The notes beneath the pieces were generated by a model. The model ran no database searches and was not told the origin of the DNA. It saw only the letters and a program-made list of their open reading frames with translations. A stretch of DNA of 64,000 nt from Poritiphilus flavus (lineage in GTDB: Bacteria > Bacteroidota > Bacteroidia > Flavobacteriales > Flavobacteriaceae): NCBI RefSeq assembly GCF_009901585.1, contig NZ_WXYO01000005.1, positions 248,001 through 312,000 on the forward strand, written 5' to 3'. Positions 40,033 through 45,735 of the stretch are shown here, one piece after another; positions within the stretch are counted from its first letter, which is position 1, and each line of letters starts with the position of its first letter. The position numbers were made by a program, and so were the translations under genes.

Positions 40033-40055
40033 AAGTGTGTAAATCTTACACACTT
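40033..40055. promoter_or_regulatory. candidate activator-binding palindrome (UAS) 1
   Basis: AAGTGTGTAA (40033-40042) and TTACACACTT (40046-40055) form a perfect ten-base inverted repeat with a three-base spacer. The core GTGTA-N5-TACAC (40037-40051) recurs at 41080-41094 with 13 of 15 bases identical. A further half-site TTACACA lies at 40066-40072. The centre is 116 bases upstream of the GG of the downstream promoter element. The expected binder is the NtrC-family regulator encoded at 41845. Confidence 0.65.
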
Positions 40056-40158
40056 TTAGAATCGCTTACACAGCATTATACATTCCTTAAAGCTTTACTA
40101 AGACAAACAAATATCTGTAAATCAGGAGTTTAAAATGATTTTGGCCTAAAGCGGCCGA

Positions 40159-40174
40159 TGGCATCATTTTTTCT
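40159..40174 (+). promoter_or_regulatory. sigma-54-like promoter of the first PepSY-like gene
   Basis: TGGCAT-CATTT-TTTCT resembles the sigma-54 -24/-12 consensus TGGCAC-N5-TTGCA. It lacks the G of the -12 GC. The same element with two changes precedes the paralogous gene at nearly the same distance (48 versus 47 bases from the conserved C to the ATG). No TAnnTTTG housekeeping element lies between it and the gene. Confidence 0.55.
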
Positions 40175-40220
40175 CTCACAATAGCGATTACAAAACAAGG
40201 TTTAATTAAAAACACATGAA

Positions 40221-40526
40221 ATGAAAAAATTAGTTTTGATTATCGCATTGGTTGCCGGAAGCTTTGCAACTTTTGCTCAGGATACTGAAGAAGTACAGGC
40301 AACCGCCACAGAAGTAATGGAAGAAGCACAAGACAATTTTGCTGCTATTGAAGTCGCTGAACTTCCTGCTGCAATTACCGAGGCTCTGGCCAAGGATCAC
40401 CCTGATGCTACTATCAGCAAAGCTTATACTAATGAAGAAGGACAGTACAAGCTCGAAGTTGCCAAGGCTGACGGTACAGAGGTTACCCTTTACGCCGATG
40501 CCGAAGGTAACTGGTTAGAAATGTAA
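40221..40526 (+). CDS. Small exported PepSY-like protein (paralogue 1)
   Basis: A 101-residue protein with a signal peptide (MKKLVLIIALVAGSFATFAQ). An acidic, Ala-rich helix follows, then a PepSY/beta-lactamase-inhibitor-like beta domain (ELPAAITEALAKDHPDATIS, YKLEVAKADGTEVTLYADAEGNW). It aligns without gaps to the gene at 41264, with 59 of 101 residues identical. The function is unknown. The mature protein is strongly acidic. It is probably switched on by the neighbouring NtrC-type regulator through the shared upstream elements. A perfect hairpin terminator closes the unit. Confidence 0.85.
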   Translation: MKKLVLIIALVAGSFATFAQDTEEVQATATEVMEEAQDNFAAIEVAELPAAITEALAKDHPDATISKAYTNEEGQYKLEVAKADGTEVTLYADAEGNWLEM

Positions 40527-40577
40527 TAAGTAAGCGTTTTTTATATAGAGTTAATTAGTTTTTGGTTAGTTTGGTTT

Positions 40578-40618
40578 AGAAAGCCCCTGGAGGAATTCCT
40601 CCAGGGGCTTTCTTTTTT
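40578..40618 (+). terminator. terminator after PepSY-like paralogue 1
   Basis: A perfect palindrome at 40578-40613 with 18-base arms, followed by six T. GAATTC is at its centre. Confidence 0.9.
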
Positions 40619-40669
40619 ATGTGACTTTTTTCAAATGACGATGTCTAGCCGTATAAGTAAAGAGAACAT

Positions 40670-40852
40670 ATGTTGTTAAGACAGTTTTTTAGCTCAGTTC
40701 TTTGGGCTCTGGCCTGGGTGTTATGCCTGATTTTTGCCTCCTGGCAGCTTCAGGATGAGGAATCTCAGCAGTGGGTAAATGAACATACTGAGCAGCAGGT
40801 TGAATTGATTAAAAGACAAACTGAGGTAGCAACTAAAGCAATTGGTGATTAA
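40670..40852 (+). CDS. Small membrane protein, unknown
   Basis: A 60-residue frame beginning at ATG 40670. A hydrophobic segment (SSVLWALAWVLCLIFASW) is followed by a charged, Gln/Glu-rich helix (DEESQQWVNEHTEQQVELIK). It lies between the two PepSY-like paralogues with its own downstream hairpin. I know no family. The frame could be chance, but the membrane helix plus amphipathic tail and its position make it worth keeping. Confidence 0.45.
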   Translation: MLLRQFFSSVLWALAWVLCLIFASWQLQDEESQQWVNEHTEQQVELIKRQTEVATKAIGD

Positions 40853-40946
40853 AAATCAACCCTGGGGAACGATGGCTAACACTGTTCAGTTCTCTCGTGA
40901 GTTGAACCGGGCTATAGAAGGTCTATACTAACCGCCTTTTACGTTT

Positions 40947-40954
40947 GTGTGTAA
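40947..40954 (-). promoter_or_regulatory. isolated GTGTGTAA half-site
   Basis: The reverse complement of the TTACACAC half-site seen in both candidate activator sites. It lies about 140 bases upstream of the second palindrome. Confidence 0.3.
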
Positions 40955-41022
40955 GTAGCTATATGTTAAATTCCATGTTCAATTTGAACTGTCGTTAGAC
41001 TTCATGGACTGGTTGGTTTTTA

Positions 41023-41078
41023 AGCCCTGAGATCCGGATGACTCCTGCGGTCATAGCTGTGTGATCAGGGCTCTTTTT
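41023..41078 (+). terminator. structured terminator between the small membrane protein gene and paralogue 2
   Basis: Outer arms AGCCCTGA (41023-41030) and TCAGGGCT (41065-41072) enclose an inner stem (ATGAC against GTCAT). Five T follow. Confidence 0.7.
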
Positions 41079-41079
41079 C

Positions 41080-41094
41080 GTGTAGATTTTACAC
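41080..41094. promoter_or_regulatory. candidate activator-binding palindrome (UAS) 2
   Basis: GTGTA-N5-TACAC, identical in spacing to the core of site 1 and matching it at 13 of 15 bases. Its centre is 117 bases upstream of the GG of the promoter element (116 at the first gene). A second half-site TTACACAC follows at 41119-41126, 32 bases from the centre. At gene 1 this distance is 22, a difference of about one helical turn. Confidence 0.6.
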
Positions 41095-41202
41095 AACTTT
41101 GGGATGGCTTTCCCACAATTACACACCTCGTAATTATGGCATCGTAATAATAAAATAATGACAATCAGTGAGTTAAAAAGAAATTTATGTTCATGAAATT
41201 CT

Positions 41203-41218
41203 TGGTATCATATTTTCA
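41203..41218 (+). promoter_or_regulatory. sigma-54-like promoter of the second PepSY-like gene
   Basis: TGGTAT-CATAT-TTTCA, the counterpart of the element at 40159-40174. The downstream sequences of both genes also share GTTTAATTA before the ATG. Confidence 0.55.
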
Positions 41219-41263
41219 ATAGACCAGAAGAGTTTAATTAGAAAGAACATAAAATATATCATC

Positions 41264-41569
41264 ATGAAAAAATTAATTTTTGCAGCAGTATTGTCACTTG
41301 GAAGTCTAACGGCCTTCGCTCAGGATGCAGAAGAGGCTCAGGCAGATGCCACTGAAGTTGTAGCAGCTGCTCAGGACGACTTTTCTGAAATAGCTGTGGA
41401 AGAACTACCGGAAGCAGTAACCGCTGCCGTGGCAAAGAATTACCCGACTGCAACTATAAATAAAGCATACGTTAACGAGGCGAAGCAATTCAAACTGGAA
41501 GTTTCTTTAGAAGATGGTACTTCCGGAACCCTATACGCTGACGAGAACGGAAATTGGATCGAACAATAA
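41264..41569 (+). CDS. Small exported PepSY-like protein (paralogue 2)
   Basis: A 101-residue protein with a signal peptide (AVLSLGSLTAFAQ) and the same layout as paralogue 1: acidic helix, then the beta domain (ELPEAVTAAVAKNYPTATIN, FKLEVSLEDGTSGTLYADENGNW). The pair arose by duplication including the promoter region. The PepSY-like fold occurs in protease inhibitors and envelope sensors, so an envelope role is likely, but none is known. Its own terminator follows and the NtrC-type regulator gene comes next. Confidence 0.85.
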   Translation: MKKLIFAAVLSLGSLTAFAQDAEEAQADATEVVAAAQDDFSEIAVEELPEAVTAAVAKNYPTATINKAYVNEAKQFKLEVSLEDGTSGTLYADENGNWIEQ

Positions 41570-41844: not shown

Positions 41845-43197
41845 ATGCCAAACATCTTGATCATCGAAGACGATGCTGCCTTTTGCCAGATGCTCCAAAG
41901 GTTTTTGACTAAAAAGGGTTATGAGGTACAAAGCAGCTTTACTGCCCCGGATGCCAAAGAAAAATACAGAACCAACACTTTTGACCTGGTGCTAACGGAT
42001 CTGCGGCTACCCGATTGCAATGGTATTCAGTTACTTGCAGATATTAAAGCTACTTCTCCCCAAACTGCAGTTGTGCTAATGACCGGTTATGCGGAGGTTG
42101 GATCGGCAGTAGAAGCCATGAAACAAGGGGCTGCGGACTATATATCCAAACCATTTACCCCTGAAGAAGTGGTTGAAGTGATCGAGAACGCCCTGAAACC
42201 TGAAAAAAGCAGCAAGAATTCTTCTAAAAACCCAAAGAAACAGGAATCCCAAAAGACCACTGAAAATTTTACCATGATAAATGGTATAAGTGAGGCCTCT
42301 AAAAAGACCAATGAATACATCAAATTGGTAGCCCCTACGGATATGTCAGTGCTGATCACTGGCGAGAGCGGTACTGGGAAAGAGGTCAGCGCAAGGGCCA
42401 TCCACAATAATAGCCCAAGAAAGGATTTTATGTTCGTTGCCGTAGATTGTGGTGCCATACCCAAAGAACTGGCTACAAGTGAGTTTTTCGGTCATGTTAA
42501 AGGCAGTTTTACCGGGGCTATTGAAGACAAAGTCGGGCATTTTGAAGCAGCTAACGGCGGAACCCTTTTCCTGGATGAAGTTGGAAATCTATCTTACGAG
42601 AACCAGATCCAATTGCTCCGGGCACTGCAGGAACGAAAAATTAAAAGGGTAGGGAGCACCAGGGAGGTAGCCGTAGATGTAAGGATCATAACCGCTACTA
42701 ACGAAGATCTCCAAAAAGCTGTTGAAAAAGGGGTGTTCCGCGAAGATCTATACCATAGGCTGAACGAATTTTCAATTGCAATCCCTTCGCTCAAGGAACG
42801 AAAAGATGACATCCTGCTTTTTGCAAACCTGTTTCTGGATAAGGCCAATCAGACCCTCGGGAAAAAGATCCTTGGCTTTTCTGATGAGGTTACGGAGCTT
42901 TTTTACAGCTACCGATGGCCAGGGAATCTAAGAGAGCTCAAAAATGTAATCAAAAGAGCTGTGCTACTTTCCTCAGGAGAAACTGTAAACACGGAGGTGC
43001 TGCCAGGGGAATTGCTACAACCTCAAGCCGAAGAAGCTATTTCTGCTGATGAATTCTCCAGAGCGGATTACGAAAAAGAACAGATCATTAAAGCGCTTAA
43101 ACAAACCAACTTTAACAAATCCAAAGCGGCTAAATTACTCCGGGTTACAAGGAAAACGCTTTATAATAAGATCAATTACTATAAGTTGGACTTTTAG
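41845..43197 (+). CDS. Sigma-54-dependent response regulator (NtrC family)
   Basis: A 450-residue activator. The receiver domain (1-120) has phospho-acceptor Asp52 in LVLTDLRLPD and Lys102 in ISKPF. The AAA+ domain (about 145-380) has Walker A GESGTGKE (173-180), the sigma-54 contact loop GSFTGA (220-225, a permitted variant of GAFTGA), Walker B LFLDEV (241-246) and the arginine-finger region EDLYHRL. A Fis-type helix-turn-helix lies at the C-terminus (NKSKAAKLLRVTRKTLYNKI). It converges with the hybrid kinase gene (26-base overlap). Its likely targets are the two PepSY-like genes upstream. Confidence 0.93.
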   Translation: MPNILIIEDDAAFCQMLQRFLTKKGYEVQSSFTAPDAKEKYRTNTFDLVLTDLRLPDCNGIQLLADIKATSPQTAVVLMTGYAEVGSAVEAMKQGAADYISKPFTPEEVVEVIENALKPEKSSKNSSKNPKKQESQKTTENFTMINGISEASKKTNEYIKLVAPTDMSVLITGESGTGKEVSARAIHNNSPRKDFMFVAVDCGAIPKELATSEFFGHVKGSFTGAIEDKVGHFEAANGGTLFLDEVGNLSYENQIQLLRALQERKIKRVGSTREVAVDVRIITATNEDLQKAVEKGVFREDLYHRLNEFSIAIPSLKERKDDILLFANLFLDKANQTLGKKILGFSDEVTELFYSYRWPGNLRELKNVIKRAVLLSSGETVNTEVLPGELLQPQAEEAISADEFSRADYEKEQIIKALKQTNFNKSKAAKLLRVTRKTLYNKINYYKLDF

Positions 43198-45649
43198 AGA
43201 TTCGCTCTTTTAGCGAATCCAATAGGGCTTTGGTGGTTGTCTCTAACCGCTGCAAGAAGGCTTCCAAAGGCATGTTTGCCTCAAGTTCTGATTCCTCAAT
43301 TACCTCAAGTTCCTCCAGATCCTTTACCGCTTCCGCTACTTTGAGTTGGCGGAACATAGGTAGCATCCTATGGGCTATATCATTGATATTCCCAAAATCC
43401 GATCCTGAAATAGCCTCGGACAATTTGGCCAGATTAGTCTCCGTATCCTTTATAAATGTATATAACACTTCGTCCATAGCAGCGGTGTTCTCACCAAGAA
43501 AAGAAGCGATGACATCCAGACTGTAAAGACCGCCCTGTTCTTCAGTCGCGATTGTTTTTTCGTTGCTTTCTTCCAATGAAAAATGCGAAGGGAACAACTG
43601 TTGAAGTACTTCCAGGAATTGCTGCTTGGTAAAAGGCTTGCTGATCACTTCGGCAAAACCCTCTTTTTTGTAGCGGTCCGGGTTTAGATCCCGTCTTCCG
43701 GTCATTGCCAGCACCGCCTGGCCTTTGAAATGGTTGTATGCTTCAGAATTAAGTCGTTTTAGCACTTCAAAACCATCTATCCTCGGCATTTGAATGTCCG
43801 TTAATACCATATTGTAATCCAGCGAAGCATCAGTCGTGATTTCCTCAAAATCCGAAAAAGTATGCGCCTGAATACCCAATCCGCTACAAACCTCCTTTAA
43901 GAGTTGCAAAAGGGAGCTGTCATCATCAATGATCAGTATGGTAAAAGGTTTGGATAGGCGGATCAGCTTCTCTTTTTGTTTAACGACAGGAATTTCCGAG
44001 ATCTTCAAAGGCAACTCCAGGATAAAGGTGCTTCCCTTCCCTTCCTCACTTTGCAAATTGATGGAACCTCCTAGCAGTGTAGCCAGTTTTTTGGATATGG
44101 TCAATCCCAGACCGTACCCACCGTATTTTTTTTCAATATCTACTTCTGCCTGGGTGAATTCCCTGAATATATATTGTTGTTTTTCTTTTTGAATCCCTAT
44201 CCCACTGTCAATCACCTTGATAACAACCATACAATTTAGATCCTGAACCTTTGTAAAACTGGCCTCCAGCTTTACATGGCCTTTATGGGTGAATTTGTAA
44301 GCATTGCCCACAAGATTCGTGACAATTTGCCTGATTCTATGTGGATCTCCAATAACAGGTTTCTCCAGTTGCTCGTCAATGTCAAGTATAAGTGAAACCG
44401 GCTTATTCCTATACAACTCTCTTAAATTTTCTGCTGTTTGATGTAATACTTCAGACAGAATAAAAGGTATGGTCTCTACCTTGATTTTCCCTGCCTCCAG
44501 TTTAGAAAAATCAAGCAGGTCGTTAACCAGGCTCTCTACGTACTCCGATGAGGACCGCACTTGCTTGAGGTAAAGGCGCTGTTTTTCTGACAGTTCGGTA
44601 CTGTCTATGAGTTCGGAATATCCGCTAATAGAACTCAAAGGCGTTCTCAGGTCATGGCTAACCGTAGAGATGAGTTGCTCCCGGCTTTTCAATAGAGATT
44701 CGGAATATTTCTTTTCCTGTTCAAGTCGTTGCCTGTAGGTTTGAATTTTCCAGAAATCCCGGTTGATCAAAAAGGTAAAAACCCCTACGATAAGGAAGCC
44801 CAGAAGGGCTGCCAGCCCGGCCAGTCTTAAACTTCTTCTTACCGCCGCTTGTTTACGGACGTTCGCATTATAGGTATTAACCATAACCTCCTGTTCAAAA
44901 GCGGCAATGATACTCCTTAGCTTTTGGGAGAGTTCCATATCATTTTGGTTGATCTTGGCCTCTTTCTGTTCCAGGGAACGCTGCTTTCTGGAATCTGTAA
45001 GTTTTGCCTGGTTCAGTAGGGCCTTGGAAACGTTCAATATGGAGTCTACCTTTTCCGCATTCATAGGATCGTTCTCATTTTTAGGAACGTTTTCATTCAG
45101 ATAATCCGCAATGTCCCGAATTACGCTTTGAGCCTTGGGCGAGAGCTCCGAGAGATTGGGAGCCAGGGCTTCCGGGGTGATTCTACCCAAAGAGGCTTCC
45201 ATGCGTTTGAATTCCTCCAGGGCCGCATCCAGGGAGCTGTTAGCGTCGTTTCTGGCCTTGAGGTTTCGCAATTCGTTGCTATTGGCCACTTTTTGAAGCA
45301 ATAGCGTCTGTACACTATCCAGCAAGCCGATCTGATAACTGCTTTCCGAAAGCCCTTTAAGAGTATCGATCTCAACACATATGGAATCAATTTTTAAGGA
45401 GTAGGCCTTGAAATTCGTGCCAGTCTTGGTCTGTAAAGCCAGCTTGGAAAGGCTCTCTGCTTCGTACAAGCGAGTGAGTAAAGAGCTGGTTTTTAATAAT
45501 TTGGAATCGCTTTGGTCTACGGTTTCAGGAAAGAGATACACCTTGATCTCAGAAAAGATAAAAAAACCGATAACCGTAGTGAGTATACCCAGAACAATAT
45601 AGCTAAGCACAATTTTTAGGTTGAATTTGTTCCTGGATCTCTCGTTCAT
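43172..45649 (-). CDS. Hybrid sensor histidine kinase with receiver and HPt domains
   Basis: An 825-residue kinase starting at ATG 45649. A membrane helix (about 12-36) comes first, then an alpha-helical periplasmic sensor of about 235 residues without a recognised family, and a second helix (275-296). HisKA follows with His332 in STVSHDLRTPLSS, then an ATPase domain (NLVGNAYKFTHKG, DSGIGI, GYGLGLTISKKL). A receiver (about 568-685) has Asp618 in VLTDIQMP, and an HPt-like end has His760 in INDIAHRMLPMFRQL. The phosphorelay would pass to the convergent NtrC-type regulator. The overlap of their 3' ends fits joint function. Confidence 0.92.
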   Translation of the reverse strand: MNERSRNKFNLKIVLSYIVLGILTTVIGFFIFSEIKVYLFPETVDQSDSKLLKTSSLLTRLYEAESLSKLALQTKTGTNFKAYSLKIDSICVEIDTLKGLSESSYQIGLLDSVQTLLLQKVANSNELRNLKARNDANSSLDAALEEFKRMEASLGRITPEALAPNLSELSPKAQSVIRDIADYLNENVPKNENDPMNAEKVDSILNVSKALLNQAKLTDSRKQRSLEQKEAKINQNDMELSQKLRSIIAAFEQEVMVNTYNANVRKQAAVRRSLRLAGLAALLGFLIVGVFTFLINRDFWKIQTYRQRLEQEKKYSESLLKSREQLISTVSHDLRTPLSSISGYSELIDSTELSEKQRLYLKQVRSSSEYVESLVNDLLDFSKLEAGKIKVETIPFILSEVLHQTAENLRELYRNKPVSLILDIDEQLEKPVIGDPHRIRQIVTNLVGNAYKFTHKGHVKLEASFTKVQDLNCMVVIKVIDSGIGIQKEKQQYIFREFTQAEVDIEKKYGGYGLGLTISKKLATLLGGSINLQSEEGKGSTFILELPLKISEIPVVKQKEKLIRLSKPFTILIIDDDSSLLQLLKEVCSGLGIQAHTFSDFEEITTDASLDYNMVLTDIQMPRIDGFEVLKRLNSEAYNHFKGQAVLAMTGRRDLNPDRYKKEGFAEVISKPFTKQQFLEVLQQLFPSHFSLEESNEKTIATEEQGGLYSLDVIASFLGENTAAMDEVLYTFIKDTETNLAKLSEAISGSDFGNINDIAHRMLPMFRQLKVAEAVKDLEELEVIEESELEANMPLEAFLQRLETTTKALLDSLKERISKSPTYSN

Positions 45650-45735
45650 GTGGCGGATTCGTTGTGGGGGTATGATATACATACGAATTATCGGGTGTAT
45701 ATGGCTTATTTCAGCCATCAAATTATTTTGAGCTT

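Follow-up and report, generated by a model that had tools for sequence, protein, structure and literature searches.

The two PepSY-like genes in the window (the whole 64,000-nucleotide stretch of Poritiphilus flavus DNA analyzed here) very probably belong to a dedicated NtrC-type sigma-54 regulon, in which autonomous enhancer-promoter units drive PepSY-like genes. The features of the locus are listed below; both predicted transcription starts were derived from the usual sigma-54 distance.

40035..40056, + strand: predicted palindromic enhancer site of PepSY-like gene 1 (agtgtgtaaatcttacacactt), center about 40044-40045; the strongest motif upstream of family members
40066..40072, + strand: half-site TTACACA of gene 1, in phase, two helical turns downstream of the right arm of the palindrome
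40159..40173, + strand: predicted sigma-54-type promoter of gene 1, TGGCAT-N5-TTTC, with GG at -24, C at -12 and T at -13; predicted start ~40185
40221..40526, + strand: PepSY-like exported protein 1, 101 aa, with a signal-like segment at the N-terminus
40578..40613, + strand: predicted intrinsic terminator 3' of gene 1, strong and GC-rich
41078..41099, + strand: predicted palindromic enhancer site of PepSY-like gene 2 (ttcgtgtagattttacacaact), center about 41087-41088
41119..41125, + strand: half-site TTACACA of gene 2, in phase, three helical turns beyond the right palindrome arm
41203..41217, + strand: predicted sigma-54-type promoter of gene 2, TGGTAT-N5-TTTC; predicted start ~41229
41264..41569, + strand: PepSY-like exported protein 2, 101 aa
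41612..41642, + strand: predicted intrinsic terminator 3' of gene 2, strong and GC-rich
41845..43197, + strand: NtrC-type response regulator, the presumed activator, with a receiver, a sigma-54 AAA+ domain with a GSFTGA loop and a Fis-type HTH
43172..45721, - strand: hybrid histidine kinase, the presumed sensor, convergent to the regulator, with HisKA, HATPase and receiver domains

An earlier note on this DNA had described a palindrome, a half-site and a promoter-like element upstream of both PepSY-like genes, and each element was found at its position when the sequence was read out. The palindrome cores, GTGTAAATCTTACAC (40037-40051, center 40044) and GTGTAGATTTTACAC (41080-41094, center 41087), are equal at 13 of 15 bases, and the perfect arms of the first reach AAGTGTGTAA-N3-TTACACACTT. 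The TTACACA half-sites begin at 40066 and 41119, which is 22 and 32 bases from the palindrome centers. The remark in the note that the two half-site positions differ by about one helical turn was right, and the quantized spacing seen across the family extends it. The promoters read TGGCATCATTTTTTC (gene 1) and TGGTATCATATTTTC (gene 2), with the GG 116 or 117 bases from the palindrome center and the last C 48 (gene 1) or 47 (gene 2) bases ahead of the ATG. The suggested genome search for GTGTR-N4-TTACAC gave only two matches in 4,989,619 bases, both of which are the palindromes of the PepSY-like genes.

Each PepSY-like gene is followed by its strong, GC-rich terminator, and the two genes are therefore separate transcription units. 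The possibility that the palindrome is the terminator of the upstream DUF4301 gene was rejected, as it has no terminator-like score. Between the two PepSY-like genes lies an open reading frame of 60 aa (40670-40852) with an N-terminal hydrophobic stretch. It was considered as an additional member and rejected, because a search of 69 related loci found no homolog of it; it is probably outside the conserved unit.

The profile of the small protein matched 105 of 300 Flavobacteriaceae genomes. In 47 of the 49 loci of the first set, the window included, the PepSY-like genes adjoin an ortholog of the sigma-54 response regulator seen in the window, and these orthologs, the window excluded, are 54-71% identical. 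Of 69 loci, 58 contain the regulator, 57 the convergent kinase and 46 the DUF4301 gene. Relatives with the locus include Zobellia, Maribacter, Arenibacter, Cellulophaga, Euzebyella and Pricia. Comparison of the orthologous upstream regions, as proposed in the note, showed that the layout and the regulator-kinase pair are conserved across the family.

Leader genes were defined as those with no other family member within the preceding 250 bp (n = 83, from the window and related genomes). The pattern TGGYAY-N5-TTTC was found upstream of 48 of the 83 leaders (shuffle mean, 0.17) and GTGTA-N5-TACAC upstream of 35 (shuffle mean, 0.07); the TTGC form of the promoter pattern was found upstream of none of them. 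None of the 15 internal genes had either pattern or the TTGC form. A motif search from random starts in the leader upstream regions recovered both the palindrome and the promoter, and a search for the perfect palindrome in 100 genomes gave 19 sites, many of them directly upstream of family members, compared with 1 for the reversed control. The promoter pattern alone matched 83 times genome-wide, compared with 68 for the reversed control, so that only its combination with the palindrome and its position are informative; a genome-wide target list based on this pattern was abandoned for the same reason. The occurrence of the palindrome at two places in the genome, the contrast with shuffled sequence and the motif search from random starts indicate that the layout is not due to chance. 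Some loci (L027, L083, L091, L094, L112 and similar ones) contain tandem PepSY-like genes, with up to four copies per locus, and copies close behind another copy are without their own enhancer and promoter.

The genome contains one rpoN and six genes with a strong sigma-54 activator domain. The response regulator of the window has the domains PF00072, PF00158 and PF02954 (receiver, sigma-54 AAA+ and Fis-type HTH, respectively). The GSFTGA loop was found in 46 of 47 regulator orthologs, while the loop reads GAFTGA or GAFTDA in the other activators of this genome. GSFTGA is listed among the loop variants expected to keep activity (PMC4641369).

The distance between enhancer and promoter was analyzed in 94 leaders that were above the score thresholds and had a distance of 95-135 bp from the palindrome center to the GG; the thresholds and this range were the author's choice, and 1 of 74 leaders scored earlier lay outside, at 50 bp. 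The observed distances were only 102-108, 115-121 and 127-132 bp, forming classes at about 104, 117 and 128 bp. No leader of the 94 fell into the gaps at 109-114 and 122-126 bp, where a uniform spread would have placed about 33, and in a later set none of 36 leaders did. The resultant was 0.76, or 0.77 when each locus contributed a single leader, compared with 0.38 for the 99.9% null, although nominal probabilities overstate the evidence because the sequences are related. The control distance from promoter to ATG showed no period (0.19). The best period of the enhancer-promoter distances was 11.5-12.4 bp, which is somewhat longer than 10.5 bp. Most half-sites lay 21.5 or 31.5 bp away from the palindrome center, in one orientation by 66 to 1, and their distance to the GG clustered near 73, 84, 95 and 107 bp. 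The quantized distance implies helical phasing; most simply, activator and polymerase would need fixed helix faces to meet through a short loop.

The genes are related as paralogs and orthologs, and inheritance from a shared ancestor, without constraint, might instead account for both the layout and the spacing classes. The classes do cluster on the tree, and its well-supported branches force only two to three changes per class. However, the spacer has diverged (median ungapped identity of 0.39, compared with 0.32 for shuffled sequence, and none of 316 pairs above 0.7), yet its length stays quantized, and internal genes close behind a family member are without the motifs. Parsimony on the weakly resolved tree gave 17 changes among the three classes. 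Independent in-phase shifts were therefore several, their number being uncertain, and ancestry alone is a very improbable explanation compared with constraint on the helical phase.

In all but one scored leader, the palindrome center lies between about -126 and -156 relative to the presumed start, a distance typical of AAA+ activators. This bears on the alternative that another factor, for example of the CRP/FNR or MarR type, binds the palindrome while the neighboring regulator acts elsewhere. The size of the palindrome suits many dimeric factors, and binding by the regulator is deduced from linkage alone. In contrast, the linkage is strict, and the palindrome is in fixed phase with a sigma-54-type promoter, which requires an AAA+ activator. 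Another binding factor is thus unlikely, and the neighboring NtrC-type regulator is the better candidate for the palindrome.

The PepSY-like genes without a nearby regulator (2 loci of the first set and 10 of the later set) allowed the unit to be viewed apart from its neighborhood. The ten later loci had not been used in training the motif models by which they were scored, and nine of them showed the palindrome-promoter layout, some with a weak promoter score; in the remaining one, leader L229 was scored and the layout was absent. The palindrome was weak at some scored leaders. In G065 and G045, which have such loci, a regulator ortholog (69% or 63% identical) is encoded elsewhere in the genome. 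The layout was kept without a regulator nearby, and therefore the unit belongs to the gene itself and is more than a feature of its neighborhood. With a complete enhancer-promoter unit at each PepSY-like leader, copies could increase in number or change position without leaving the regulon. The idea in the earlier note of a duplicated enhancer and putative sigma-54-type promoter served by the adjacent sigma-54 response regulator is supported by rpoN, the activators, the conservation and these unlinked genes.

The GG at -24 was present in about 98-99% of the 83 leaders, and the C at -12 was at the canonical sigma-54 distance in 90%. The base at -13 was T in 73, C in 15, G in 4 and A in 2 of 94 leaders, so that 90 of the 94 are without the consensus G. 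Deviations in the -12 part are known from validated promoters (PMC12316311), and for this reason the motif is named sigma-54-type and not a member of the consensus. The missing G, in a motif known here from sequence, could also mean that the element belongs to another sigma factor or is unrelated, without involvement of sigma-54. This is highly unlikely in view of the GG and C, which hardly vary and lie exactly at the sigma-54 spacing, and of the adjacent sigma-54 activator, whose AAA+ domain is intact and whose loop variant is expected to be functional (PMC4641369). A sigma-54-type promoter is the preferred reading.

The earlier note had suggested that the -12 half is a lineage variant, i.e., that the sigma-54 of these bacteria reads a -12 element without G at all promoters. 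RpoN of the window's genome (L051:1711-3168) has a V in place of E. coli E378, within the HTH recognizing the -12 element, which would suit this idea, but R383 and the RpoN box are kept. Moreover, the control promoters of the family retain the G at -13, in 28 of 28 cases for groES and 24 of 24 for grpE, compared with 4 of 94 here, where the groES and grpE counts take in only promoters recognized by the search patterns. Mapped starts of groES and grpE in Flavobacterium psychrophilum carry the sigma-54 motif SM4 (PMC9723704). The grpE promoter reads TGGCAG (TGGCAGTACTTTTGC), and in the same genome as the window an osmC-like gene next to another activator has a canonical promoter, TGGCAC-N5-CTGC, in which the TGC is kept. 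The V at the E378 position cannot explain the difference at -13, because the promoters compared share one genome. A lineage-wide variant can therefore hardly be upheld, and T or C at -13 belongs to the PepSY-like regulon and not to the sigma-54 of the lineage. The interpretation in the note stands in its sigma-54-type enhancer-promoter part but not in its lineage-variant part; what goes beyond that first reading is the quantized enhancer-promoter distance and, from promoter comparison, the regulon-specific T at -13. Judged by these promoters, the sigma-54 of the family meets two kinds of -12 element.

Some other features were observed around these comparison genes. At grpE loci (L254, L236, L250 and others among L230-L259), the presumed sigma-54 promoter is itself a near inverted repeat (TGGCAGTACTTTTGCCA), and a conserved direct repeat, TGACATTTTGACATTTT, lies a short way upstream; repeat and promoter are almost invariant across the family. 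Most groES upstream regions (L180-L209) have a second TGGCATTTTTT element about 38-42 bp before the sigma-54-type promoter. The activator adjoining the osmC-like gene (L047:3597-6161) has cyclic-nucleotide-binding and PAS domains and no receiver; its gene is located behind a Dps-like gene and directly before the osmC-like gene.

The difference at -13 might reflect an activator code, in which promoters of the GSFTGA-loop clade carry T or C at -13 and those of other activators carry G, so that selectivity would lie partly in the -12 element. Such a code is conceivable because the L1 loop of the activator touches the -12/-11 region (PMC7175178). Co-variation of loop and -13 base was looked for inside the regulator clade, and none was found: the locus of the only GAFTGA ortholog, L106, still has T at -13, and the promoters with G at -13 (L032, L088 and L100) adjoin GSFTGA regulators. 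The code is considered doubtful.

The small proteins may be called PepSY-like by sequence only weakly. PF11396 was the best family by count, for 17 of 18 homologs with E values up to 1, and the window protein scored 18.6 bits, below the curated cut-off of 28.3. A single-sequence model of the window protein had a pLDDT of at least 90 for about half of the residues. Its five best PDB matches were periplasmic DUF2874 proteins of Bacteroides, with modest scores (E, 0.02-0.2; TM, 0.38-0.43).

In the proposed mechanism, the hybrid histidine kinase would sense a signal, probably an envelope-related one, and pass phosphate to the NtrC-type response regulator. The regulator would bind the palindrome TGTGTAA-N3-TTACACA and would also occupy, cooperatively, the half-site that lies downstream, in phase, at two or three helical turns. 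A loop of about 104-130 bp would then bring it to the RNA polymerase-sigma-54 that waits at the -24/-12 promoter. Opening of this promoter, with T or C for G at -13, would lead to expression of the small exported PepSY-like proteins, whose role may be related to the envelope.

With this model, a proposed regulator, sensor and regulon are assigned to exported proteins that form a widespread family of unknown function. It also provides a family-wide natural test of whether sigma-54 enhancers need a fixed helical face, in which more than 100 natural enhancers agree and both palindrome and half-site are quantized. Finally, the sigma-54-type promoters are consistently without the -13 G that sister promoters in the family keep, and the role of this base (silence, activator dependence or activator choice) is testable in the culturable Zobellia, Maribacter, Arenibacter and Cellulophaga.

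Among known systems, the qrr genes of Vibrio (LuxO, sigma-54) likewise have sites for an NtrC-type activator ahead of a sigma-54 promoter, at distances in helical-turn-like steps; their loop lengths of about 80-120 bp, in steps of ~11 bp, were read as tolerance of whole turns (PMC4740811). They differ in phylum, regulator, small-RNA targets and tandem LuxO sites, whereas here there are a palindrome and a half-site, both quantized, and no G at -13. For nifLA of Klebsiella pneumoniae, activation by NtrC depends on the face of the helix (Minchin 1989, as cited in PMC7408454), which is the dependence proposed here for an NtrC-type activator. As described there, it was shown by experiment at one promoter, while here it is deduced from natural variation over many genera. 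The sigma-54 regulon of F. psychrophilum (motif SM4) is in the same family, and starts have been mapped at its sigma-54 promoters, which serve envelope and protein-quality genes; the available text of PMC9723704 names no PepSY-like target or enhancer. The groES and grpE promoters of the family keep the G at -13, unlike the PepSY-like promoters. The periplasmic PepSY_like/DUF2874 proteins (PF11396; PDB 3due, 3db7, 4dsd and 3elg) are, like the window protein, small exported Bacteroidota proteins and are its best fold matches, although its Pfam score is under the cut-off and its fold scores are modest.
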